A DNA stretch of 59,178 nucleotides from a virus: positions 1 through 59,178 of the IMG/VR virus record IMGVR_UViG_3300033146_002247. The stretch is one strand, 5' to 3'. Every line of letters begins with the position of its first letter. Positions within the stretch are counted from its first letter, which is position 1. The position numbers were made by a program, and so were the translations under genes. The notes under the pieces were generated by a model. That model worked only from the letters and a program-made list of their open reading frames with translations. It had not been told where the DNA came from and ran no database searches. Below are positions 1-53,309 of the stretch, one piece after another.

Positions 1-146
1 ATTTGTATTTAAACGTTTTTGATGACCTAAAGAAAACTACCAAAAAAATAGTGAAAAAATAAAAAATAATTAGCCCAATCTAAGTAGACAATTTTTGTAA
101 ACTTTAATAAAATGCGAAATTTTTATTAAAAAAATGAAAATAAAAT

Positions 147-173
147 TAAAGATTCTCAAAAAAATGTCGATAT
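147..173 (+). promoter_or_regulatory. Sigma-28 (FliA)-type promoter of the flagellin gene
   Basis: TAAAGATT (147-154), exactly 11 bases, then GTCGATAT (166-173). The flagellar sigma-28 consensus is TAAAGTTT-N11-GCCGATAA, so 7/8 and 6/8 positions match with the canonical spacer. It lies about 54 bases upstream of the flagellin start. It is unlike the TTGACA-N17-TATATT promoters elsewhere in the window, which suggests that the host flagellar sigma factor reads it. Confidence 0.65.
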
Positions 174-226
174 TATATAAAGAGATAATAAATTGTTTAT
201 TATCAAAAATAAAATAGAGGTGTACA

Positions 227-1111
227 ATGAGTATGAGAATTAATCACAATGTGTTAGCTATGACTGCACAAAGACATATTAGTCGGGCACAAAATTCACT
301 AGATTCTGCAGTTGGCAGATTATCAAGTGGTTTAAGAATTAATAATGCAAGTGAGGATTCGGCTGGTCTCGCGATTTCTGAAAAATTGCGTGCGCAAATA
401 GGTGGAATGAATGAGGCTGAAAGAAATGCTAACTATAACATAAATATGTTATCTACTGCAGAGGGTTCGCTACAAGTTATTGATGAAAAACTTATTAGAA
501 TGCGAGCCTTAGCAATCCAATCTTCTAATGGTGCGCTGGAAAATAAAGATAGAGAATATATTAATGTTGAATTTCAACAATTAAAATCAGAGATTACTAG
601 AATTGCAAAGGTAACAAATTATAATAATGTTAAGTTATTAAACGGAGATCTTTCAACAAATGCAGTAGGTTCAACTTCAGGTAACATGACTAGTGTTAAT
701 GATAACTCAAGTAATATTAAATTTCATATCGGTGCTAATGTAACACAAGGTGAAGATTATTATTTTGTGAACGTTGCCTCTGCAACAGCAGCTTCATTGG
801 GTTTATCCTCATCATCTGTAACTAACACATCAAATTCACAAACTGCAATTGATTTATTAGATGCTGCGATTGAGTCCAAAGATACTACAAGAGCATTTAT
901 CGGTTCAATGGTTAATAGGTTACAAAGTAATATTTTAGAACTTCAAATATCTAAAGAAAATGCACAGACCAGTGAATCAGCTATAAGGGATGCTTCAATT
1001 GCTGAGGAAATGAGTAATTTCACACGTGCAAATATCCTATTTAATGCTGGAATTAGTATGTTAGGTCAGGCGAACTCCTTACCAAATGCTATCGCTAGTT
1101 TACTAGGGTAA
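227..1111 (+). CDS. fliC: Flagellin
   Basis: Flagellar filament subunit of 294 residues. The N-terminal D0/D1 region shows the family signature (RINHNVLAM, then LSSGLRINNASEDSAGLAIS at about 32-51). The C-terminal D0/D1 region ends in the usual way (RDASIAEEMSNFTRANIL, then LGQANSLPNAIASLLG). The short, Ser/Thr/Asn-rich middle means the variable D2/D3 domains are essentially absent. The start has a GAGG site just upstream. The gene looks richer in G+C than its neighbours, consistent with acquisition from a host. It heads a module with a FliS-like chaperone and a FlgM-like protein. Both polymerisation ends are intact, so a functional subunit is expected. In a phage it may replace or dilute the host flagellin; that role is inferred. 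Confidence 0.95.
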   Translation: MSMRINHNVLAMTAQRHISRAQNSLDSAVGRLSSGLRINNASEDSAGLAISEKLRAQIGGMNEAERNANYNINMLSTAEGSLQVIDEKLIRMRALAIQSSNGALENKDREYINVEFQQLKSEITRIAKVTNYNNVKLLNGDLSTNAVGSTSGNMTSVNDNSSNIKFHIGANVTQGEDYYFVNVASATAASLGLSSSSVTNTSNSQTAIDLLDAAIESKDTTRAFIGSMVNRLQSNILELQISKENAQTSESAIRDASIAEEMSNFTRANILFNAGISMLGQANSLPNAIASLLG

Positions 1112-1159
1112 TTTTATAAAACAAATACAAAAAATATGAACAAAGATAAATTTTCATTT

Positions 1160-1198
1160 ATGCACAGATAGTCTTCATTTATCCGATTATCTGTGCAT
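1160..1198 (+). terminator. Hairpin between flagellin and fliS
   Basis: ATGCACAGATA (1160-1170) pairs perfectly with TATCTGTGCAT (1188-1198) around a 17-base loop. No T-run follows, so it may be an attenuator or an mRNA-stabilising stem that lets flagellin mRNA outnumber fliS, rather than a full terminator. Confidence 0.5.
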
Positions 1199-1222
1199 TA
1201 CTAATAAACAAAAGGTGATAAC

Positions 1223-1624
1223 ATGAAATTAACAAATCCCTACCAACAATATTTGAATAATAAAGCAAATACCAATAAAGCAGAGTTAATGATTATTGTT
1301 TATGATTTTGCAATAACTAATTTAAAAAAAGCACAGACTTATATAGGAACTAATGAATACCAAAAGAAAGGTAATGCAATTGATAATTCATTTAAAGCAG
1401 TGTCAGAACTAATATTCAGCTTAGATAAGAGTACAGATAATAACACAGTATTGAACATTAGTAATAATTTGGAAAAAATATATAATTTCATTTTACGTTC
1501 AATATCAAGTGCGAATATAAATAATGATAAAGAAATATTAAACTCACCAATTCATATATTAACTGATATTAAAGATACTTGGTTAAAAGTAATAGATATA
1601 AACCGAAATGAGAGTATTTTATGA
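1223..1624 (+). CDS. fliS: FliS-like flagellin export chaperone
   Basis: 133 residues, the usual FliS length. The start NPYQQYLNNKANTNKAELMI, followed by a helix-rich body with IVYDFAITNLKKAQ, matches the FliS pattern (Y..Q......KAEL..MLYEGAI..L..A). FliS binds the flagellin C-terminus in the cytoplasm and prevents premature polymerisation. It lies directly downstream of the flagellin gene, as in many bacterial flagellar operons, and its last codons overlap the next start (TTATGA), implying translational coupling. Codon use is as AT-rich as the phage genes around it. Confidence 0.8.
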   Translation: MKLTNPYQQYLNNKANTNKAELMIIVYDFAITNLKKAQTYIGTNEYQKKGNAIDNSFKAVSELIFSLDKSTDNNTVLNISNNLEKIYNFILRSISSANINNDKEILNSPIHILTDIKDTWLKVIDINRNESIL

Positions 1625-1851
1625 AAATAGCAAATAATTATATACCTACATATATACAAAATTATAAGTTTTCTAAAATAAATAAAATAAAAGATGAACC
1701 TAATAAGTCAGATGTTCTGGAAATTAGCGATTCTGCAATAAATAAAAATAAAAAATTTGGAAAAATATTAAATCAAATAGACGAAAAATTTTATCAGTCA
1801 GAGGATATTATCAATAAAGTATTAGATGAAATTTTAAAAACTATTATATAA
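1621..1851 (+). CDS. FlgM-like small flagellar regulator (tentative)
   Basis: 76 residues, starting inside the fliS stop. The layout resembles FlgM anti-sigma-28 proteins: a polar N-terminus, the motif DVLEISDSA at about residues 31-39 (compare DKVELSxxA), and a C-terminal helical stretch with FYQSEDIINKVLDEIL (compare GxYxVxxxxIAxxLL). FlgM holds sigma-28 until it is exported. If real, it would let the phage tune the sigma factor that its flagellin promoter appears to use. Short flagellar-operon proteins of unknown role share the same motif, so the call rests on composition and context. Confidence 0.4.
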   Translation: MKIANNYIPTYIQNYKFSKINKIKDEPNKSDVLEISDSAINKNKKFGKILNQIDEKFYQSEDIINKVLDEILKTII

Positions 1852-1862
1852 AGAGGTATAAA

Positions 1863-2342
1863 ATGGATGTGTTAGGATTATTAAAAATAGATGGATTACA
1901 TAAACAATTATATGTACAATCAGCAACAGATCAACTAATAGATGAAACAGATTTAAATTTGGTTGAATTAACAGGTTTTCAATTATTACTAAAAAATAAA
2001 ATAAATCATGCAATATTTTCTGAAATACCAAGAAAATCTACTGTAAGTGGAACTACTTTAACATTAAATAAACCCTTGGTTGGTTTTCAGCCATATAATT
2101 TAATTGGAAATTATGTATTATTAATTAAAACTGATTATTCTACTGAAATTGTTAAAATAATGGCTACAAATGACACATTTGATGTATTAACTTTAGAAAA
2201 TGCTCCTACCGGTGATGCAAATCCATTAGCAATTTTTACAGAATTAAATAGAGTCCCTGTTGAACAATTAAGTAATTTAAGTGTAAAACCAATTGTTTAT
2301 TCAACTAATAAATTTGGAATAAGAAATTATTACGAATTATAA
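1863..2342 (+). CDS. Hypothetical protein, possibly virion-associated
   Basis: 159 residues, not recognised. It is rich in alternating hydrophobic and polar segments that suggest beta structure (TVSGTTLTLNKPLVGF, NYVLLIKTDYSTEIVKI). It has no signal peptide or membrane segment. An AGAGG site lies 8 bases before the ATG. It sits between the flagellar module and the hub gene and ends at a strong hairpin. A small neck or baseplate part is possible but unproven. Confidence 0.6.
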   Translation: MDVLGLLKIDGLHKQLYVQSATDQLIDETDLNLVELTGFQLLLKNKINHAIFSEIPRKSTVSGTTLTLNKPLVGFQPYNLIGNYVLLIKTDYSTEIVKIMATNDTFDVLTLENAPTGDANPLAIFTELNRVPVEQLSNLSVKPIVYSTNKFGIRNYYEL

Positions 2343-2350
2343 AATAATCT

Positions 2351-2383
2351 AAGCTACTAGTATTATAAAAGTACTAGTAGCTT
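2351..2383 (+). terminator. Hairpin terminator
   Basis: A 12-bp perfect stem, AAGCTACTAGTA (2351-2362) with TACTAGTAGCTT (2372-2383), and a 9-base loop. The T-run is short, so termination strength is uncertain. Confidence 0.6.
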
Positions 2384-2402
2384 TATTAATAGGAGCTTAT
2401 AG

Positions 2403-2729
2403 TTGCAACATATATTAAATTTTAGTTATAAAAAGAAAAATATAAATGTTAAATATTTTTTATTCAACACAGACCTATCATTTCATATAGGTAAACCTTA
2501 TAACTTAACATCGAATGCTTTTGTATATGATAAAAATAAAGATGACAAAAATAGGTCTAATTTGAAACATATAATAAAAATCATCATATCTGCTTATGAT
2601 GAAATTAAACGAACCAATGGTTTTAAATTAGGTGAAATTATAAAAAAATATAAAATTGATGAAATGGCAGATATTAATGAATTAACCGATGAAATTTCCA
2701 ATTTATTAAAGGCTAAATATGATTTATGA
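2403..2729 (+). CDS. Hypothetical protein upstream of the baseplate hub
   Basis: 108 residues. It starts at TTG with a good AGGAG site; there is no in-frame ATG early on. The C-terminal half is helical and charged (IIKIIISAYDEIKR to LTDEISNLLKAKYDL). The last codons overlap the hub start by 11 bases, so the two are probably translated together, and a role beside the hub in tail assembly is plausible. The size and position would suit a small baseplate assembly protein, but no family is recognised. Confidence 0.65.
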   Translation: MQHILNFSYKKKNINVKYFLFNTDLSFHIGKPYNLTSNAFVYDKNKDDKNRSNLKHIIKIIISAYDEIKRTNGFKLGEIIKKYKIDEMADINELTDEISNLLKAKYDL

Positions 2730-3957
2730 AATTAATTATATACCAACAAAAGCTAATTCATATTTTATTGAACCTGACCGAATTGTTGATCTTAAGTTTA
2801 CTACTTCTATAAACACCCCTTTCATAGATTTTTCACTGACTTTAATTGATAATACAGCATCTGAAATATTTGATTTTATTAAAGGTGATAAAGTTAATAT
2901 TAAGATAAAAGGATTTAAAACTAATGGCGAACAAACCAATTATAATACTTTAGTTGAGTTGGTAGAACTAGATTTATTTGTTTATAAAATTAGTAGATAT
3001 TCCTCTGCTCTAAATGAACAAGATAAATTTATTTTACATTTAATAAGTGAACCGATATTTAACGCATATACTAAATATAATAGCAAAACGTATGAAAATA
3101 AATCTGCGACTGATATAATAAAAGATCAATTAAATATGATTAATTTAGAAACTAATGATTTTGATGAACCTACTACTAAATTTGAAATATTAACATTTCC
3201 ATTATGGACTACTTTTCATAACTTAACCTACATAACAGATCGAATGACTGATGGAAAATCGGGTTATTTGTTTTGGCAAGATATTGAAACTTTAAATTTA
3301 AACATTAAATCTATTCATAATTTATTTAAAGGTAATTTTGAAGATTATGTAAATAGTAAAACTTATCAAAATGGTGAATTGATTGAAGATGGTATAGGTT
3401 TAGTTGAAAATCAAGGTGGATTTAATATAGCAACTGAATTATCTATAACAAAAGATACTGATATTATAAAAATGTTGAATAATGGAATAGGTAAAACTAA
3501 TGTTATTAATTTTAATCTAAATGAGAACGAAATCTATTCAACTGATGAAACTATTACTGATAATTTATCAAGTACAGAGCATTTAGGCGATTATTCGATA
3601 TATACTAAAGATATAATCGGAACTAATGAAATTAATATATTTAATTACAATCTGAATGAATCAAGTGACGATTTATTAAAAATAAAATATTCACGACAAT
3701 TATTAAATGGCATAGAAGCACGTGCTGAATTATCTGGTGATATATTTAGAAAAGTGGGAATGAAAATTAAAGTTAATTTTAGACAAAAATTACCTAGATT
3801 AACTGATGAAAAAAGTGACTATTTAGAAAAATACACAGGGTATTATATTATTTCAGATATTCAACATTATATGACAATTTCAGAATACAATCAAGTTGTT
3901 ATTTTGAAAAGTGATAGTTTTTATAATGATGACCGAGATAATTTTATTAAATGGTAA
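2719..3957 (+). CDS. T4 gp27-like baseplate hub protein
   Basis: 412 residues. The N-terminal beta domain (IVDLKFTTSINTPFIDFSLTLID, about 23-45) and the following SKTYENKSATDIIKDQLNMI (about 121-140) resemble the hub/gpD-type tail proteins that form the trimeric base for the spike. The C-terminal KVGMKIKVNFRQKLPRL, ..YIISDIQHYM is typical of the second barrel. Hub subunits sit beneath the tail tube and hold the gp5-type spike, which is encoded 46 kb away at 49498. The assignment is by pattern and size rather than strong identity. Confidence 0.6.
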   Translation: MIYEINYIPTKANSYFIEPDRIVDLKFTTSINTPFIDFSLTLIDNTASEIFDFIKGDKVNIKIKGFKTNGEQTNYNTLVELVELDLFVYKISRYSSALNEQDKFILHLISEPIFNAYTKYNSKTYENKSATDIIKDQLNMINLETNDFDEPTTKFEILTFPLWTTFHNLTYITDRMTDGKSGYLFWQDIETLNLNIKSIHNLFKGNFEDYVNSKTYQNGELIEDGIGLVENQGGFNIATELSITKDTDIIKMLNNGIGKTNVINFNLNENEIYSTDETITDNLSSTEHLGDYSIYTKDIIGTNEINIFNYNLNESSDDLLKIKYSRQLLNGIEARAELSGDIFRKVGMKIKVNFRQKLPRLTDEKSDYLEKYTGYYIISDIQHYMTISEYNQVVILKSDSFYNDDRDNFIKW

Positions 3958-3986
3958 ATAAAAATACATTTAATAAATCTTTTTTC

Positions 3987-5590: not shown

Positions 5591-5830
5591 ATGAAAATAA
5601 CTAAAAGTCAATTAAAAGAAATAGTAAATGAAGTATTGAACGAAGGTGGAATGAGTGACCAACATCTAAAATTTGTGGATAAATTAGTAGATGCTGATAA
5701 CGTTAAAGAGGTAAAATTACTTATTCAGAAAGATGTTTATAATTTTGTACAAACAAAAATAACTGATAAATTATTAAAGAAAATTGCTAATTCAGATGAC
5801 TATGAAGAAATTGCTGAATTGATAAATTAA
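5591..5830 (+). CDS. Putative internal head protein with capsid-targeting-like N-terminus
   Basis: 79 residues. It begins MKITKSQLKEIVNEVLNE-GG, a basic amphipathic helix ending in L-N-E. T4 internal proteins carry a comparable short N-terminal capsid-targeting sequence removed by the gp21 protease after [LI]xE. The remainder is a small charged helical domain. The same opening recurs on seven other otherwise unrelated products here. Packaging and cleavage are inferred. Confidence 0.6.
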   Translation: MKITKSQLKEIVNEVLNEGGMSDQHLKFVDKLVDADNVKEVKLLIQKDVYNFVQTKITDKLLKKIANSDDYEEIAELIN

Positions 5831-6361: not shown

Positions 6362-6478
6362 ATGCTAATATATTTACATGGTTTTCGTTCTGCACCCACC
6401 CAACAAAGATTAGAAATATTAAAAAAAATTGATAAAAATGTAATCGCTCCTTTTATTGAATATAATATTCTTTTATAA
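6362..6478 (+). pseudogene. 5' fragment of interrupted YqiA-like esterase
   Basis: The first 35 or so codons (MLIYLHGFRSAPTQQRLEIL...APFIEYN) match the start of YqiA/UPF0227 alpha/beta-hydrolases, including the LHGF oxyanion loop. Reading then runs into stop 6476-6478 at the left end of the TnpB element. The remainder of the gene lies at 7817-8281. Confidence 0.75.
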
Positions 6479-7816
6479 TTTTCTATAAAAAATCAATTTT
6501 TGATAAAGAAAATATAAAATAAAATGATGAAAATTTAATAAATAATTAAAAACGAGACTGATGAAAAAATCTACTAAAAATATTGTAAGGACTGTAAAAT
6601 TTTCTACTAAATTCACAAATAAAGATAAGATAGACTTATACACTAAAATATTTGTAGACTTTAAATTAGATTTACAAAGTTATATAGAAGATATTATAAG
6701 TGGAGTTTTACCTTTTAATTTTGGTGGATTACTTACAAGTAAATTGATTCCAAATAAAATAATTAAACACAGTCAATATAAACAAATTATCTACAAAACA
6801 GCTATAGAAATAATTAAATCTAACCTAGTTAAAACAAAGAACAAAACATTTAAAAGATATAGTAAAGTCTATTATAAAGCACATAAAAGAGGACGATTAA
6901 CTAAATTTCTTTCTAAAAAATATAGTGAACTAGATATAAATTTTCTACAAAGATTGGACAAAATAAATGTAGATAATGTAGGCATAAACTTAGACTCTAG
7001 ATTATTTGACATAGAAAAATCTAACGATGGATTGTTTAGTTATTTTATTAAAATAAAGTCACCTTACATAGTTAAAAATAAAGCAATTACTATAAAAATT
7101 CCTTTAAAATCTTACAAATATGCTAAGAAATTTATAAGTGATTTTTCTTTAAATAGTACCATACAGTTAAAAGAAAGTACAATTGGATTGGTCTTTAGTA
7201 AAGAATTACCTGACAAAAAAGTAATTAAAAATGTGGTTGGATTGGATGTCGGTTACAAGAAATTACTTGCTGATAACAAAGGTAATTTCTACGGACAAAG
7301 TTTACTTGAACTATACAATAAAATTAGTAACAAGGTACAAGGAAGTAAAGCTTTTAAACGATTACTAATACATAGAAATAATGAAATAAACAGATTTTGT
7401 AATAAATTTTTACTAGATAATGTAGAATTAAGTTTATTGGTTTTAGAGAAATTAAAGTCAGTAAAATCTAAAAGTAAAGGTAAAATTTACAAGAAAGTAA
7501 TGAACAAAATGCAACGATGGAGTTATCCATTAGTAATGACTAAGTTAGAGCGATTAAGTGAAACTAAAGGTTTTAGTTTACATTTTGTCAACCCTGCTTA
7601 TACAAGTCAACAATGTAGTAAATGTAGTATAATTTTAAAGTCGAACCGGAACGGAGAGACTTATAAATGTAATTGTGGTAATAACTTAGACGCAGATACT
7701 AATGCAGCTATAAACATTACTCGTAAAGGTACAGTTGAGTTAAACTTGATTTAGTTAAAACTTAACGATATAATTCCTTTAGCTACGAAAAGTCATTTTA
7801 TCATTTTTGATGGTAA
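6479..7816 (+). mobile_element. TnpB-only IS200/IS605-family element
   Basis: About 1.3 kb between the two halves of the esterase gene. It contains only tnpB, with no Y1 tnpA, so it must be mobilised in trans if at all. Ends are approximate, set by where esterase reading stops and resumes. The non-coding flanks (about 80 and 60 bases) are too short for a group I intron. The 3' flank has an imperfect hairpin near 7794-7818, where an omega/reRNA would end. Confidence 0.7.
6561..7754 (+). CDS. tnpB: TnpB RNA-guided endonuclease
   Basis: 397 residues. The RuvC triad appears intact: D229 in VGLDVGYKK, E296 in LVLEKLKS, D379 in LDADTNAAINI. A zinc ribbon is present (C352/C355 and C370/C372). TnpB uses an RNA from the element's right end to cut the empty donor or target site, promoting element retention. 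It interrupts a YqiA-like esterase gene and has no tnpA nearby. No strong GGAG site precedes it, unlike the phage genes. With an intact active site it is not a nuclease-dead TldR-type repressor. Confidence 0.9.
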   Translation: MKKSTKNIVRTVKFSTKFTNKDKIDLYTKIFVDFKLDLQSYIEDIISGVLPFNFGGLLTSKLIPNKIIKHSQYKQIIYKTAIEIIKSNLVKTKNKTFKRYSKVYYKAHKRGRLTKFLSKKYSELDINFLQRLDKINVDNVGINLDSRLFDIEKSNDGLFSYFIKIKSPYIVKNKAITIKIPLKSYKYAKKFISDFSLNSTIQLKESTIGLVFSKELPDKKVIKNVVGLDVGYKKLLADNKGNFYGQSLLELYNKISNKVQGSKAFKRLLIHRNNEINRFCNKFLLDNVELSLLVLEKLKSVKSKSKGKIYKKVMNKMQRWSYPLVMTKLERLSETKGFSLHFVNPAYTSQQCSKCSIILKSNRNGETYKCNCGNNLDADTNAAINITRKGTVELNLI

Positions 7817-8281
7817 AAGATAATTATAATTGAAGAAATTGAAGAAATTGTGAAAAATGCAAAGAATAATTTCAAAGATGAAAAAATTGTAATCGTAGGA
7901 AGTTCTTTAGGCGGTGCACTTGCTTATCAATTAGGACAAAAATATGGAATTTTACCAATTTTGATAAATCCATCATTAACGCCATCTAAAACTATTTCAA
8001 ATTTAAATAATAAAGTCTTAGAAAATTATGTAACCGGTGAAAAAGTATTTACTGGTAATTTATCGGAAAAAATGAAAAAATTTGATATTAATATTAAAAG
8101 TTATGGAATTGTATTATTGGATTTAGGTGATGAAATTTTAAATTCAAATTTTACATACGAACAATTTAAACCGAATCATAAAGTAATTACATTTACTGGT
8201 GGTAATCATAGGTTTCAGCATTGGAATGAAGCTATAAAAATTATAAAAGCTGAATTAAATTCAAATTATATTTTTTCATAG
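7817..8281 (+). pseudogene. 3' fragment of interrupted YqiA-like esterase
   Basis: Open from 7817 with no good start; a GTG at 7850 is in frame but has no convincing ribosome site. It carries the nucleophile elbow VGSSLGG, then PILINPSLTP, LDLGDE and a final GGNHRF, giving the Ser-Asp-His set of the UPF0227/YqiA family. Joined to the 6362 fragment it makes a protein of about 190 residues. The catalytic Ser and His are separated from the LHGF start, so activity needs element excision or restart. Confidence 0.75.
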
Positions 8282-30568: not shown

Positions 30569-32023
30569 ATGTTAAAAAGAAATTTAAGTGAAGTTTATTT
30601 TGGTGGTCAAACATTTGACATACAAAAAAACCCTGATTATGTAAAATATTTAGAGCCTATTATATCTAAATTAAAAAAATCTAGCAAATTAGTTTTTAAA
30701 AAATCAACTGGCGTAGTGTTATCATTAAAAGGAAATTTAAAAACTGGAATTAAAAATTATAATTCTGCTGTTGCTAAGGATAAAGAAATTATTATTTCGA
30801 CTAGTAGTAAAAAAGAAATTCAATCATTTTTACAATCTTTTCATAATCCTATATTTGTGACAAAAAATGGTGAGTTTCCTTTATCGCAGTTAGATAAAAG
30901 TCCTTTTACTATTGGTAGTAAAAAAGATACTCACAAAAAAACTGAGTGTAGTGAAATATGTAGTTTAATAGCATGTAAACTAATGTCAATAGGAAATGGT
31001 GAGGTTTTAAATAATGAAAATCAATTTAAAAAAATATTAAAAACTTATGTGTCCTCCGCGGTATATAAATTATACGAAACCAATTATTGGAAATCTGCAA
31101 AAATACAGGCCAAATTGTTAGTTGATTCCTTATATTTTGATTCAAGTATAAATTATACTTTTGTTATGCGAGATAACGCAGATATTAAAAAAATGTATCA
31201 AACTGCGATAAAATTAATCAAAAAAACTGGTTTAAAATATAGTTATGATGACTGGAACCCTGCGGATATGTGGGCATATAGATCAGTGAGTGACATCACC
31301 AATCTTAGTGAAATTAATAATATTATTAAATATAATGAAACGGTGAATTTGTTAATAAAAGAGAAAAAGTTATTGCCAATTTCATTAAAGTTAATAAAAG
31401 GCGATACTGGTAAATGTACAAAAATACTTATGAATAGTACAAACAATTTATACCTTAGAGGCATATCTTCAATAGACTTATCATCATCATTAAATAATTT
31501 AATTATATATTCTAATGGTTCGAATAATGATAAATTTGGAGTAAGATTAGGATATAAACGAAATAAAAATTCTGCGATAATAGATGCTGAGGGTAGAATG
31601 AAAAATGCAGGGGTTCAATTAGGTGGAATTAATAAAGGTATTTATTTAAAATATATGAATGATTATACAAATGGTGTTATAGATGGTATACAGAATTTAG
31701 GAAATGATGAAGAAAAAAAGAGGAAAATAATTGAAAAATATATAACTATTTTTACCAACGTAAAATCTAAATTTGGTAACAAATTAAAAATTAAGGATAA
31801 TACAGGGCGAAATGCATTTCATAATATAAGCGAGATAGAAAGTGTTAATCATTGGTTAAGTCTAAATAATGTTGATATTAGTAGAGGTTTAGTAATGATT
31901 TCTAATTTATATGCAATATATTATATGTTTACGAATGGACATATTAATAATTATTTTTATGATATGTTTTTATACTCTCAAAAAATCACCGAAATTGGAA
32001 CTGATTATTTAAAATTATACTAA
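30569..32023 (+). CDS. Large WNPxD protein A, putative packaged
   Basis: 484 residues, opening MLKRNLSE-VYFGG. Central motif DDWNPADMWAYR near residues 228-239, followed by KKLLPISLKLIKGDTGK. The gene at 32990 shares the order WNP[AG]D then ISLK and the leader, so the two are distant paralogues. Similar WNPxD proteins occur in other large phages, without assigned function. The C-terminal half is helical and Asn-rich. A delivered effector or internal core component is a reasonable inference. Confidence 0.6.
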   Translation: MLKRNLSEVYFGGQTFDIQKNPDYVKYLEPIISKLKKSSKLVFKKSTGVVLSLKGNLKTGIKNYNSAVAKDKEIIISTSSKKEIQSFLQSFHNPIFVTKNGEFPLSQLDKSPFTIGSKKDTHKKTECSEICSLIACKLMSIGNGEVLNNENQFKKILKTYVSSAVYKLYETNYWKSAKIQAKLLVDSLYFDSSINYTFVMRDNADIKKMYQTAIKLIKKTGLKYSYDDWNPADMWAYRSVSDITNLSEINNIIKYNETVNLLIKEKKLLPISLKLIKGDTGKCTKILMNSTNNLYLRGISSIDLSSSLNNLIIYSNGSNNDKFGVRLGYKRNKNSAIIDAEGRMKNAGVQLGGINKGIYLKYMNDYTNGVIDGIQNLGNDEEKKRKIIEKYITIFTNVKSKFGNKLKIKDNTGRNAFHNISEIESVNHWLSLNNVDISRGLVMISNLYAIYYMFTNGHINNYFYDMFLYSQKITEIGTDYLKLY

Positions 32024-44680: not shown

Positions 44681-44686
44681 ATGTTT

Positions 44687-44764
44687 GTGAAAAAGAAAAA
44701 TATAGCAATTATTGGTGGCAGAGATTTTACTGATTATAAATTACAAACAAATAAAAAGAAATAA
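44687..44764 (+). pseudogene. 5' fragment of a SLOG/YspA-type gene
   Basis: GTG start, 7 bases after AAGGAG. It reads KKKNIAIIGGRDFTDYKL, the N-terminal nucleotide-binding strand and loop of SLOG (DUF2493/YspA-like) proteins, then enters the TnpB element and stops at 44762. Confidence 0.7.
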
Positions 44765-46090
44765 AACTAATGACTTTAACTAGAACAGAAAGACATATAA
44801 TTAAACAAAGAGATACTAATTTAGACGATTTAATGTTTAAAAGTAAGAATTTGTATAACTTTGTTAACTATATTTTGAGACAAGTTTTCTATGAAAAGTT
44901 AGAGTTAATACCTGAATATAGTGACATAGTTACTGATTTTAAATCAGTTAAATCAGGTAAAATTTACAAGACAATAAATCAATTTTCTTTGATTACTAGA
45001 CTAACTAAATTAAACCAGATTGACTTTAGAGAACTACCTAGTAATACGTCTCAACAAATAATCTTTACTTTATTTAAAAACTGGAAGTCATTTTATAAAG
45101 GTGTTTTGGCTTATAGTAAAAATCCAAAGAAGTTTAAATCTTTACCTAAAGTACCTGGGTACAAAGACAAACCCAATGGTAGAAATTTATTGGTTTTTAC
45201 TACCCAACAAGTAAAACTAAAAGATGGATTTGTACATTTTCCTAAAAAAGTAAATATATCTCCTGTTAAAACCCGAGTGAACAATCTAAAACAAGTAAGA
45301 CTTTTACCTCGATTTGGTTACTACGTTTTAGAAATAGTATACAACAAAGAAGTAAAATTAAAAAAATTAAACACTAAAAAGTATTTATCTCTTGACTTAG
45401 GTGTGAATAACTTACTTGTAACTTCAGACGGACAAATCGTCAACGGCAAGATAGTTAAGAGTATAAATGCTTATTACAATAAAACTAAAGCAAGGTTACA
45501 ATCATTACTTCCTCACAAACAATTTACTAGCAAAAAACTAGAACGAATTACTTTTAGACGAACAAATAAAATCAGTGATTATATGCACAAAACAAGTAAA
45601 TATATAGTTGATTATTGTGTCGAAAATAAAGTAGGTAATTTAGTAATTGGTTACAATAAAGGTTGGAAACAAAATGTACAAATAGGTAAAAAGAATAACC
45701 AAAATTTTGTTTCAATTCCTTATTTAAAGCTTGTACAAATGATACAATATAAAAGTGAAGAAGTAGGACTATATGTTACTTTAAATGAAGAAAGTTATAC
45801 AAGTAAGGTAGATGCTTTAGCCAAAGAACCATTAAAGTTTAGTGAAAATTATTTAGGTAAAAGAGTTAAGCGAGGACTATTTCAAAGTAGTACAGGACGA
45901 CTTTTAAATGCAGACCTAAATGGAGCACTAAATGGAGCACTAAACATACTAAGAAAAGTAATCGGTGATGGTTTTATAGACCTAGTCGATAAGAGCTGTG
46001 TCGGTCAGCCAAGGAAAGTTAGTTTTACATAAAAGTAAACTAATGGAACTAAATACTTTTATAAAAATTTATACATAATTATATAAAAGT
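44748..46090 (+). mobile_element. Second TnpB-only IS200/IS605-family element
   Basis: About 1.34 kb. The left end is placed near TTAC at 44747-44750. The right end is at the 9-bp hairpin ACTTTTATA (46055-46063)/TATAAAAGT (46082-46090), after which SLOG coding resumes. No tnpA. Boundaries are approximate. Confidence 0.65.
44770..46032 (+). CDS. tnpB: TnpB-family protein with atypical RuvC-II
   Basis: 420 residues. RuvC-I D209 (YLSLDLGVNNL) and RuvC-III D382 (LLNADLNGALNG) are present. At the RuvC-II position the sequence is LVIGYNKGWKQN, with no Glu where canonical TnpB has one. E340/E341 in NEESYTSK, conserved in this subgroup as I know it, may substitute. The Cys of the zinc ribbon is missing (SYTSKVDAL). 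The subgroup is common in bacteria. It is clearly distinct from the TnpB at 6561 and not a recent copy. Confidence 0.85.
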   Translation: MTLTRTERHIIKQRDTNLDDLMFKSKNLYNFVNYILRQVFYEKLELIPEYSDIVTDFKSVKSGKIYKTINQFSLITRLTKLNQIDFRELPSNTSQQIIFTLFKNWKSFYKGVLAYSKNPKKFKSLPKVPGYKDKPNGRNLLVFTTQQVKLKDGFVHFPKKVNISPVKTRVNNLKQVRLLPRFGYYVLEIVYNKEVKLKKLNTKKYLSLDLGVNNLLVTSDGQIVNGKIVKSINAYYNKTKARLQSLLPHKQFTSKKLERITFRRTNKISDYMHKTSKYIVDYCVENKVGNLVIGYNKGWKQNVQIGKKNNQNFVSIPYLKLVQMIQYKSEEVGLYVTLNEESYTSKVDALAKEPLKFSENYLGKRVKRGLFQSSTGRLLNADLNGALNGALNILRKVIGDGFIDLVDKSCVGQPRKVSFT

Positions 46091-46204
46091 GATCCGATTC
46101 AGATATAATTTTTGCTTGTTGGGGACGGAAAATCTAAAGGTACACAACATAGTATCAAATTAGCTTATAAAAATAACAAACAATTATATATTATAAAATA
46201 TTGA
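46091..46204 (+). pseudogene. 3' fragment of the SLOG/YspA-type gene
   Basis: Reads DPIQIIFACW, then after a one-base excess (GGGG at 46121-46124) continues in the next frame GDGKSKGTQHSIKLAY... to TGA 46202. DGKSKGT is the C-terminal signature of YspA-like SLOG proteins. About 75 central codons are missing compared with a complete family member, so insertion was accompanied by deletion plus a frameshift. Confidence 0.65.
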
Positions 46205-50897: not shown

Positions 50898-51281
50898 ATG
50901 AAAAAAGGTTTTACATTAATAGAAGTGTTAGTTTCTAGCTTGATATTGGTTATTATTGTTGCTGGGACTTTTAATATGTATATAAATTATATAAAAATTC
51001 AAACCAATATTAAACAAAGGTTCAACGCCAATAGTATTATTAAAGAAATACAAGATAATATTTTTGGTATGCGCAGAGACGACACAGAGGTTTTTATTGA
51101 GAATATCAAAACCATAACAGTTGATAATACAAAATATAATGTCACTTATATTAAAACAAATTATGATTATAAAAAAATCGAGGGTTTATCGCAGGTAACT
51201 GGTGTTTTTTACAAAATCTATGTGAGCTGGGAAGGCACATATAATTCAGATAAAATAGGTTCGTGTTTTATAACATATTAG
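50898..51281 (+). CDS. Type IV minor-pilin-like protein (PilV/GspI-like)
   Basis: 127 residues. Class III signal MKKG-FTLIEVLVSSLILVI: short basic leader, Gly-Phe prepilin peptidase site, Glu at +5 and a hydrophobic helix. The remainder has a helical spine and a small beta head with one late Cys. Needs the host PilD for maturation. Minor pilins initiate pilus assembly and set adhesion. First of three such genes; GAGG site 7 bases before the start. Confidence 0.85.
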   Translation: MKKGFTLIEVLVSSLILVIIVAGTFNMYINYIKIQTNIKQRFNANSIIKEIQDNIFGMRRDDTEVFIENIKTITVDNTKYNVTYIKTNYDYKKIEGLSQVTGVFYKIYVSWEGTYNSDKIGSCFITY

Positions 51282-51290
51282 AGGTTATTT

Positions 51291-51737
51291 ATGAAAAAAG
51301 GTTTTACATTAATAGAATTATTAGTCACATCAATAATTTCTACAATATTAATAGTATCAACAATAGTAATTTTTAATATTGGAATCGATATGTATTATAA
51401 AATATCAGATACTGTGAACATACAGAATTTATTGATTGTTCATACTGATAATATTAATAACAAAATAAAATCTTCAATTAATATAAATTCAAATAATAAT
51501 GGTTTAATTATTACGAATATGGATTCTACATTAAGTTCATTTAATGTAATAGATGAACATCTGGTGGTGGACGGCAATATTGTTAATAAAGATTATATTT
51601 TTCAATTGATTAATAATGGTAGTAATTCAGAGACATTTAACTATTCTTTTAGAGTGGCATTCAAAAGGAATAATAAAATAATTTCAACCGATTTAATAAA
51701 TGGATTTGTCCAACGAAGAAATAGTATAAAATTCTAG
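51291..51737 (+). CDS. Type IV minor-pilin-like protein (PilW/GspJ-like)
   Basis: 148 residues. MKKG-FTLIELLVTSIISTIL is again a complete class III signal with Glu+5. The leader of this gene repeats the DNA around the start of the previous one (GAGGTTATTTATGAAAAAAG), suggesting duplication of the 5' region. The downstream part resembles PilW/GspJ in length and composition. Likely exported with its neighbours. Confidence 0.85.
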   Translation: MKKGFTLIELLVTSIISTILIVSTIVIFNIGIDMYYKISDTVNIQNLLIVHTDNINNKIKSSININSNNNGLIITNMDSTLSSFNVIDEHLVVDGNIVNKDYIFQLINNGSNSETFNYSFRVAFKRNNKIISTDLINGFVQRRNSIKF

Positions 51738-51749
51738 AAGAGGTATGGT

Positions 51750-53309
51750 ATGAAAGGTAGTACATTTATAACAATAATCGTAATAGCAACAATTTTCATT
51801 ATATTTAGTGGTGGTATCCACTTCGCCATAAATGCGAACGTGAAATTATCTGAAAATAATATCAAAAAAACTAAATTATATTACAAAGCCGAAACAGGTA
51901 TCAAATATGCGAAACGATGGATTCAGGCTATACCAACAATTGTGTTTTTGGATAGTAATAGTTGTAAACTATACAAAAATTATTTCAATTCACATAATAC
52001 AGACATATTATCTAATGAAAACATTTTAATTTATGTAGATTACTCTAGCAATAACAAATCTTGGTCTATTAAATCCATTGGAAAAATAAATGATAATTAT
52101 TGTGAAATAAATTATTCTGGCATTACATCAATCTCACCATTAGAGAATTGTTATTTTAACAATAGTAAATCTAGTTTCGGTGGTAATAGATTTACTGCCT
52201 CACAGGTATTTTATGGTAAAACATATTGGAACACTAAAATTCCTATTAGTGCAAAAGGTAGAAGAAATACTACATTTTGGGGTCACGTAACAACAACTGC
52301 GGCACCAGGTGGAGCCTTAACAGGAAATAGGATTAAATCTACTAAAAATCATGCAGACTCTGGAAGTAATTTACCTTTTTGGAACACGAATGGTGTTAAT
52401 TCAAAATTAACTAAGTATGCGTATGGATTGACTATATTTAAAGATTATGTTAGCATGACAGATATTCAATTAAGTAATTCATTGTCAGAGCAGACGTTTC
52501 GAGGTGGTTATACAGCAGATATTTCTTTACATAAAAGTCTGCCCAGTATTGCTTATAAGTATTCAGATATTATAAAATTAAATGCAGTTAGAAACTTAGG
52601 TCAGGGTACAGGTAATGTAGATATAATTTTTTATGTAAAAGAAAATATCGGTAAAGTTTCAATAAACGGTGTTATATATAATCAAACAGATCAAGATATA
52701 ATAGCAATACCAAAAAATTATAATAACGTATATGTAAGGGGAGAGGTAACCAGTGATATATCAATAGCAACAGAATCGGACGATATAATATTAACTGGAA
52801 ATCTATATCCAACTGAATATAAAAAAGATTTTACCAATTTAGAATCTAATTTTTTTAATAAAGTTCCTTACACTGGAATACATAATAACCATCCGGTTAA
52901 TCAATTAAAAAATGTAAAAACGAATATTCAAATTGGTTTGTTAGCAGGATTAGATTTTACTACACAAGCAAATATCATAGTATCAAAAAATTTAATGATG
53001 GATTCTAAAAGCACTGGTATTATTATCGCCGGACTTTTTGCTCCTAACGGAAAATTTAAAAAGGATAATTTACAGTGGGCATATATAAATGATATAATGG
53101 TATATGGCGCCTTTATAGGAATGTCAGAGGGTATTACTTTAAAAAATACTGGATTTAACACATTATATATGTCGAGTGATACCTTTCTCAATGGATATAG
53201 AGCACCTGGTTTTAAATCTTCTATACATATAGATAAATTTGATAAATGTGAAATAAACGAATTTTCTAGTAATATGTTAAAATGGGATGTAAAATACTAT
53301 ACAAATTAG
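51750..53309 (+). CDS. Type IV minor-pilin-like protein, large (PilX/GspK-like)
   Basis: 519 residues. MKGSTFITIIVIATIFIIFS begins a hydrophobic helix without the +5 Glu, as in GspK/PilX-type tip proteins. LYYKAETGIKYAKRWIQ (about 45-61) matches the xxAExGxxxA helix of that family. The large C-terminal region (about 120-500) is beta-rich (SSFGGNRFTASQVFYGKTYW) and could be an adhesin domain exposed at the pilus tip. Order small-small-large is the classic minor pilin operon order. Role in a phage unknown. Confidence 0.75.
   Translation: MKGSTFITIIVIATIFIIFSGGIHFAINANVKLSENNIKKTKLYYKAETGIKYAKRWIQAIPTIVFLDSNSCKLYKNYFNSHNTDILSNENILIYVDYSSNNKSWSIKSIGKINDNYCEINYSGITSISPLENCYFNNSKSSFGGNRFTASQVFYGKTYWNTKIPISAKGRRNTTFWGHVTTTAAPGGALTGNRIKSTKNHADSGSNLPFWNTNGVNSKLTKYAYGLTIFKDYVSMTDIQLSNSLSEQTFRGGYTADISLHKSLPSIAYKYSDIIKLNAVRNLGQGTGNVDIIFYVKENIGKVSINGVIYNQTDQDIIAIPKNYNNVYVRGEVTSDISIATESDDIILTGNLYPTEYKKDFTNLESNFFNKVPYTGIHNNHPVNQLKNVKTNIQIGLLAGLDFTTQANIIVSKNLMMDSKSTGIIIAGLFAPNGKFKKDNLQWAYINDIMVYGAFIGMSEGITLKNTGFNTLYMSSDTFLNGYRAPGFKSSIHIDKFDKCEINEFSSNMLKWDVKYYTN

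Follow-up and report, generated by a model that had tools for sequence, protein, structure and literature searches.

The left edge of the window, by which we mean the whole stretch of DNA analyzed (59,178 bases, the entire IMG/VR record IMGVR_UViG_3300033146_002247), carries three flagellar genes on the plus strand in the order flagellin, FliS and FlgM-like, as a sequence-only reading had described. The flagellin (227–1111) is 294 aa long and contains both D0/D1 terminal regions: residues 5–140 match Flagellin_N (PF00669; 1.8e-37, 128.9 bits against a cut-off of 26.6) and residues 208–293 match Flagellin_C (PF00700; 6.1e-18, 65.4 bits against a cut-off of 23), which bears out the claim that both polymerisation ends are intact. 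The protein is compact, has the size and domain layout of its bacterial kin and shows no new outer domain. It is followed by a gene for a FliS flagellin chaperone of 133 aa (1223–1624, plus strand), which passes the cut-offs of both PF02561 (6.2e-23, 81.7 bits against 26.7) and TIGR00208 (55.3 bits against 53.75). A plus-strand hairpin with a 14-bp core stem lies between the two genes (1151–1207; z-score -4.07, with none of 200 shuffles folding as well) and possibly serves mRNA stabilisation or attenuation.

The third gene (1621–1851, plus strand) starts at position 1621, overlapping the FliS stop at 1624, and encodes a shortened protein of 76 aa. It matches no Pfam (PF04316 included) or NCBIfam family and pairwise BLASTP against the bacterial FlgM homologues returned nothing, but a profile of bacterial flagellin-adjacent homologues scores it at 17.3 bits (E-value 7e-4 in a set of about 2200 sequences), with the match falling mainly in the C-terminal half. 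This is the top score among the open reading frames of the window and exceeds those of 2000 shuffles. The corresponding gene in one of the bacterial operons described below (L023) passes the Pfam FlgM family itself (25.8 against a cut-off of 25). The operon position and the homologue profile lend the earlier assignment weak support, and we speak of a FlgM-like protein without filing it as FlgM. An ORF of 159 aa (1863–2342, plus strand) starts 11 bp after the stop of this gene and is likely co-transcribed with the module. It has no library matches and its single-sequence fold, made without relatives, was uninformative (pLDDT 31.5); it is probably a phage protein and is followed by a hairpin (2351–2383).

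A sigma-28 (FliA) type promoter, TAAAGATT-N11-GTCGATAT, is located upstream of the flagellin on the plus strand (147–173). With a matrix built from ten bacterial flagellin promoters it scores 14.0 bits, a value reached in three of 3000 simulated 226-base upstream regions and in none of 400 in a second run; in the whole window, both strands included, it ranks fourth, with the three better matches all inside ORFs. Measured against the sigma-28 pattern of TAAAG and CCGATA boxes 15–17 nt apart before a flagellar gene, the site has one mismatch in the -10 core, and its -10 half reads GTCGATAT where the bacterial sites have NCCGATAA. A loose sigma-28 pattern was uninformative in this AT-rich window (99 matches versus 99.5 expected). 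The near-consensus site noted from the sequence was therefore real in the sense of the matrix, the positions given for it then (166–173) being the -10 half, and its score and the similar sites before two bacterial operons (L023, L028) support the view that it corresponds to a sigma-28 promoter of bacteria. The rest of the window uses a different promoter, again as had been noted: about 22 near-identical plus-strand sites of the type TTGAC(A/T)...TTATATT, probably a phage early or middle promoter, are spread over 3987–59173, with none in 1–3986. The T4-late motif TATAAATA was considered as module promoter and rejected: its copies are scattered, one of them falls within FliS, and the region before the flagellin has none.

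Judged by its gene content, the virus is a large T4-like bacterial virus and a distant relative of phage T4. Its portal gene matches phrog_213 (7.6e-62), and the window further encodes a DnaB-like helicase, DNA ligase, ribonucleotide reductase, NAMPT, head closure, DNA end protector, baseplate hub/tail lysozyme and T4-type RNA ligase, in addition to neck and tail proteins. The virus lies far from known phages, since the best matches listed for portal and tail among GenBank phages are only 22–29% identical. The record (25.5% GC) is classed as linear and is therefore probably a fragment of the viral genome; no integrase was found among the annotated genes of the T4-like set in this fragment. A phage tail/baseplate-hub-like gene (2719–3957, plus strand; phrog_350, 7.3e-28) puts the module beside phage structural genes. 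This position just downstream of the flagellin could be read as a sign that the flagellin was turned into a virion or tail-fiber component, but we regard this as barely credible, since there would then be no use for FliS, the FlgM-like protein or a sigma-28 promoter, and the flagellin has kept its bacterial domain layout.

Two further features of the window were observed. Directly after the baseplate hub/lysozyme gene, within 50898–53309, two ORFs carry the type IV prepilin N-terminal motif MKKGFTLIE (N_methyl above cut-off) and a third (51750–53309) appears pilin-like by eye; a phage with pilin-like and flagellin genes together is unusual. In addition, short N-terminal leaders are shared by the ORFs at 5591, 9207, 9548, 16710, 27129, 32053 and 54252 (IKEIVxEILxE type) and by those at 30569, 32990 and 34543 (MLKRxLxE), and by eye resemble the capsid-targeting/prohead-protease leader of T4-like internal proteins.

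A genome scan with the flagellin yielded 14 loci with 56–65% identity in uncultured bacteria of several phyla, the top locus coming from a MAG labelled Candidatus Cloacimonadota (G001). Searched against candidate-host genomes, the flagellin found its closest counterparts, 65–70% identical, in this MAG and in a second genome of its phylum (G002), among 13 genomes of that phylum examined. In the tree it falls inside the flagellin clade of these two genomes with a support of 100/100, where two sister groupings are allowed, one with the copies in the FliS operons (p-AU 0.40) and one with the C24_b/C156_b pair (0.43). Both genomes also contain an operon that matches the phage module in its three genes and in their order (G001:C79, L023; G002:C176, L028), to which the phage flagellin is 68–69% and the phage FliS 49–53% identical; the identity with the other FliS of G001 is only 29%. 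These operons likewise sit behind a sigma-28-type site (TAAAGTTC...TCCGATAA and, in L028, TAAAGATT...TCCGATAA, which is closely like the phage TAAAGATT...GTCGATAT). The other six flagellin genes of the clade in these genomes are preceded by a sigma-54-type site (TGGCA...TGC; four genes) or stand second behind such a gene (two genes). FliA is above its curated cut-off in both genomes. The phage copy differs from the bacterial operons in the length of its FlgM-like protein (76 aa versus 156–163 aa), in being followed by phage genes, and in a promoter spacer that is one base shorter.

The best explanation for these similarities is that the virus captured a complete flagellin-FliS-FlgM operon from a flagellated relative of G001 and G002. 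It would have taken the operon together with its sigma-28 promoter, because the operons of G001 and G002 sit behind a sigma-28 site while the other flagellins of the clade are of the sigma-54 type. On the module genes alone, a host in the same phylum is probable; a search of the 13 genomes for a host link by portal or TnpB2 gave nothing.

The phage and bacterial flagellins differ by 0.81–0.82 at synonymous and by 0.23–0.24 at nonsynonymous sites, without internal stops, which indicates selection acting on the flagellin protein. All three module reading frames are open, and their codon log-odds (+0.04 to +0.13) are phage-like; those of the bacterial homologues lie between -0.08 and -0.20. The phage flagellin sits on a long branch (0.28–0.44, versus 0.05–0.16 for most of its bacterial kin), which could indicate a relaxed or changed function. 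We considered whether the module is a passenger or an artefact, either a functionless transduced fragment of host DNA or bacterial DNA misassembled onto a phage contig. It lies at the very edge of the record, only 226 bp separating the left end from the flagellin start, and is the one known copy: searches of IMG/VR with the flagellin-clade and FliS alignments found no other copy of the operon, and single-protein scans with flagellin and portal found no close IMG/VR relatives. Such an origin is nevertheless unlikely. A chimera or a passenger of very recent origin is made less probable by open frames and phage-like codons in all three genes, by a divergence of about 30% with mostly synonymous change, by the shortened FlgM and by the 11-bp gap to the following ORF, although the position at the end of the record leaves this explanation some weight. 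A bacterial chromosome join at the left edge is likewise unlikely given the phage-like codons, the gap of 11 bp to the next ORF and the divergence of about 30% from the nearest bacteria.

A search with a broader flagellin alignment found 23 other IMG/VR contigs with a flagellin. The tree implies that, within the sampled set, viruses acquired a flagellin on at least three separate occasions, represented by the window, a Bacillota-type group and large low-GC contigs of up to 329 kb. Spirochete-type flagellins occur among the other viral contigs as well, and the solved relatives of the L055 flagellin include FlaB1. Six of the other viral flagellins lie near lytic-phage genes, namely helicase, exonuclease, primase, DNA polymerase, rIIA or T4 RNA ligase genes (L049, L055, L056, L048, L051, and L050). 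A sigma-28-like site was located 57–77 bp upstream of the lone flagellin in L049, L051, L055, and L056, and none was found before that of L045, L048, L050, and L053. In 20 flagellin-bearing viral records checked, FliS was absent from all and TnpB-type domains were present in two. A T4 portal profile, searched without positive control, matched none of the other flagellin-bearing viral records. In the Bacillota-type prophage contig L059 (9739–10918), and likewise in some other Bacillota-type contigs, CsrA directly precedes the flagellin. We found no paper on flagellin in large lytic phages in the open-access literature.

In cyanophages, psbA is a phage copy of the gene for a high-demand host protein, which keeps photosystem II supplied during infection. 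We propose, with a probability of about 0.5, that the captured operon is kept as a psbA-like auxiliary cassette, a phage-encoded source of filament subunit for the time of infection. Once the phage DNA is in the cell, the FliA-bound RNA polymerase of the host would read the cassette; the phage FliS would hold the phage flagellin that is made, and the flagellar apparatus of the host would export it and add it to the growing filament. The supply of subunits would persist while host genes are being switched off or degraded, which may allow the infected cell to keep swimming, and the FlgM-like protein would retain a feedback loop limiting sigma-28 activity. This is the simplest reading of the sequences, and the conservation of operon and promoter and the recurrence of flagellin in other viruses support it. 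More tentatively, and at clearly less than even odds, flagellin may be an auxiliary gene that recurs in large lytic phages, which would independently have taken flagellin genes with FliA-type promoters from unrelated flagellated hosts and so sustain filament growth and swimming during shut-down; the virus studied here would have taken the whole subunit-chaperone-regulator unit.

The C-terminal part of known FlgM proteins contacts sigma-28, and it is mainly over this part that the FlgM-like protein matches the profile of its homologues. The module might accordingly act in regulatory shut-off, in which this protein binds FliA and silences the sigma-28 genes of the host, flagellin and FliS being merely carried along. 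This appears quite improbable: the module would silence its own promoter too, and the regulator candidate is short, diverged and half the length of its homologues, whereas flagellin and FliS are intact and we count both as constrained. Moreover, sigma-54 seems to drive the remaining flagellins of the likely hosts, and FlgM would thus leave them untouched.

The window contains two TnpB genes, the nearest at 5.4 kb from the flagellin. TnpB1 (6561–7754), which has the RuvC-like D, E, D motifs and a zinc finger by eye and occurs without TnpA, is inserted in a UPF0227 (YqiA-like) esterase gene, whose halves (6362–6475 and 7850–8281) both still match the family. TnpB2 (44770–46032), apparently without zinc-finger cysteines, lies between two short remnants (44681–46204) that resemble a disrupted DUF2493-type gene, with no library match in support. 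Both genes are separate insertions away from the module; a TldR-like partner role for TnpB was rejected with TnpB1 splitting the esterase gene, in line with the remark in the sequence-only reading that no TldR sits beside the flagellin. CsrA, the partner seen in some Bacillota prophages, is likewise absent from the window.

These absences bear on the possibility of filament remodelling, in which phage flagellin would be incorporated into the host filament or take its place and alter its surface, for instance excluding competing flagellotropic phages; the sequence-only reading had suggested that antigenicity or phage sensitivity could change in this way. Between the phage flagellin and every flagellin of the likely host group there is a difference of about 30%, and mixed filaments would be normal in the likely hosts, as these carry several flagellins. 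The spirochete-type flagellins of other viral contigs would form periplasmic filaments, for which a change of surface would be of little use. Temperate phage flagellin is known to alter filament and motility (PMC13418256), and exclusion of flagellotropic competitors has been proposed for the temperate fliCP-TldR phages. For the window, we consider remodelling rather unlikely, because no silencer of the host flagellin was seen, with the TnpB genes inserted elsewhere and no CsrA, and because the protein is compact, kin-sized and lacks a new outer domain.

Temperate phages that carry a flagellin and silence that of the host are known. In a T4-like virus, a flagellin that comes with a dedicated chaperone, a gene resembling a regulator and a promoter of host type would suggest another use, namely keeping the infected cell motile. 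The case is testable through the reading of the promoter by FliA and the presence of phage flagellin in the filaments of infected cells, and the module ties this uncultured virus to a lineage that probably includes its host.

The proposed maintenance of subunit supply resembles the cyanophage psbA-type genes in the way it would work, with a phage copy of a high-demand host protein sustaining a host function; the process is a different one and no membership is claimed. The lone flagellins of large viral contigs (L045–L056) are likewise virus-encoded, several with a sigma-28-like site 57–77 bp upstream, but belong to a different flagellin clade and lack FliS in every record tested. The fliCP-TldR cassette of temperate phages of Enterobacteriaceae shares with the window a phage-encoded flagellin, whose role in the host flagellum is known there and proposed here (PMC13418256). 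It differs in that the window flagellin has no adjoining TldR or guide RNA, is compact without large outer domains, is accompanied by its own FliS and FlgM-like genes, and is carried by a T4-like virus instead of a lambda-like prophage.
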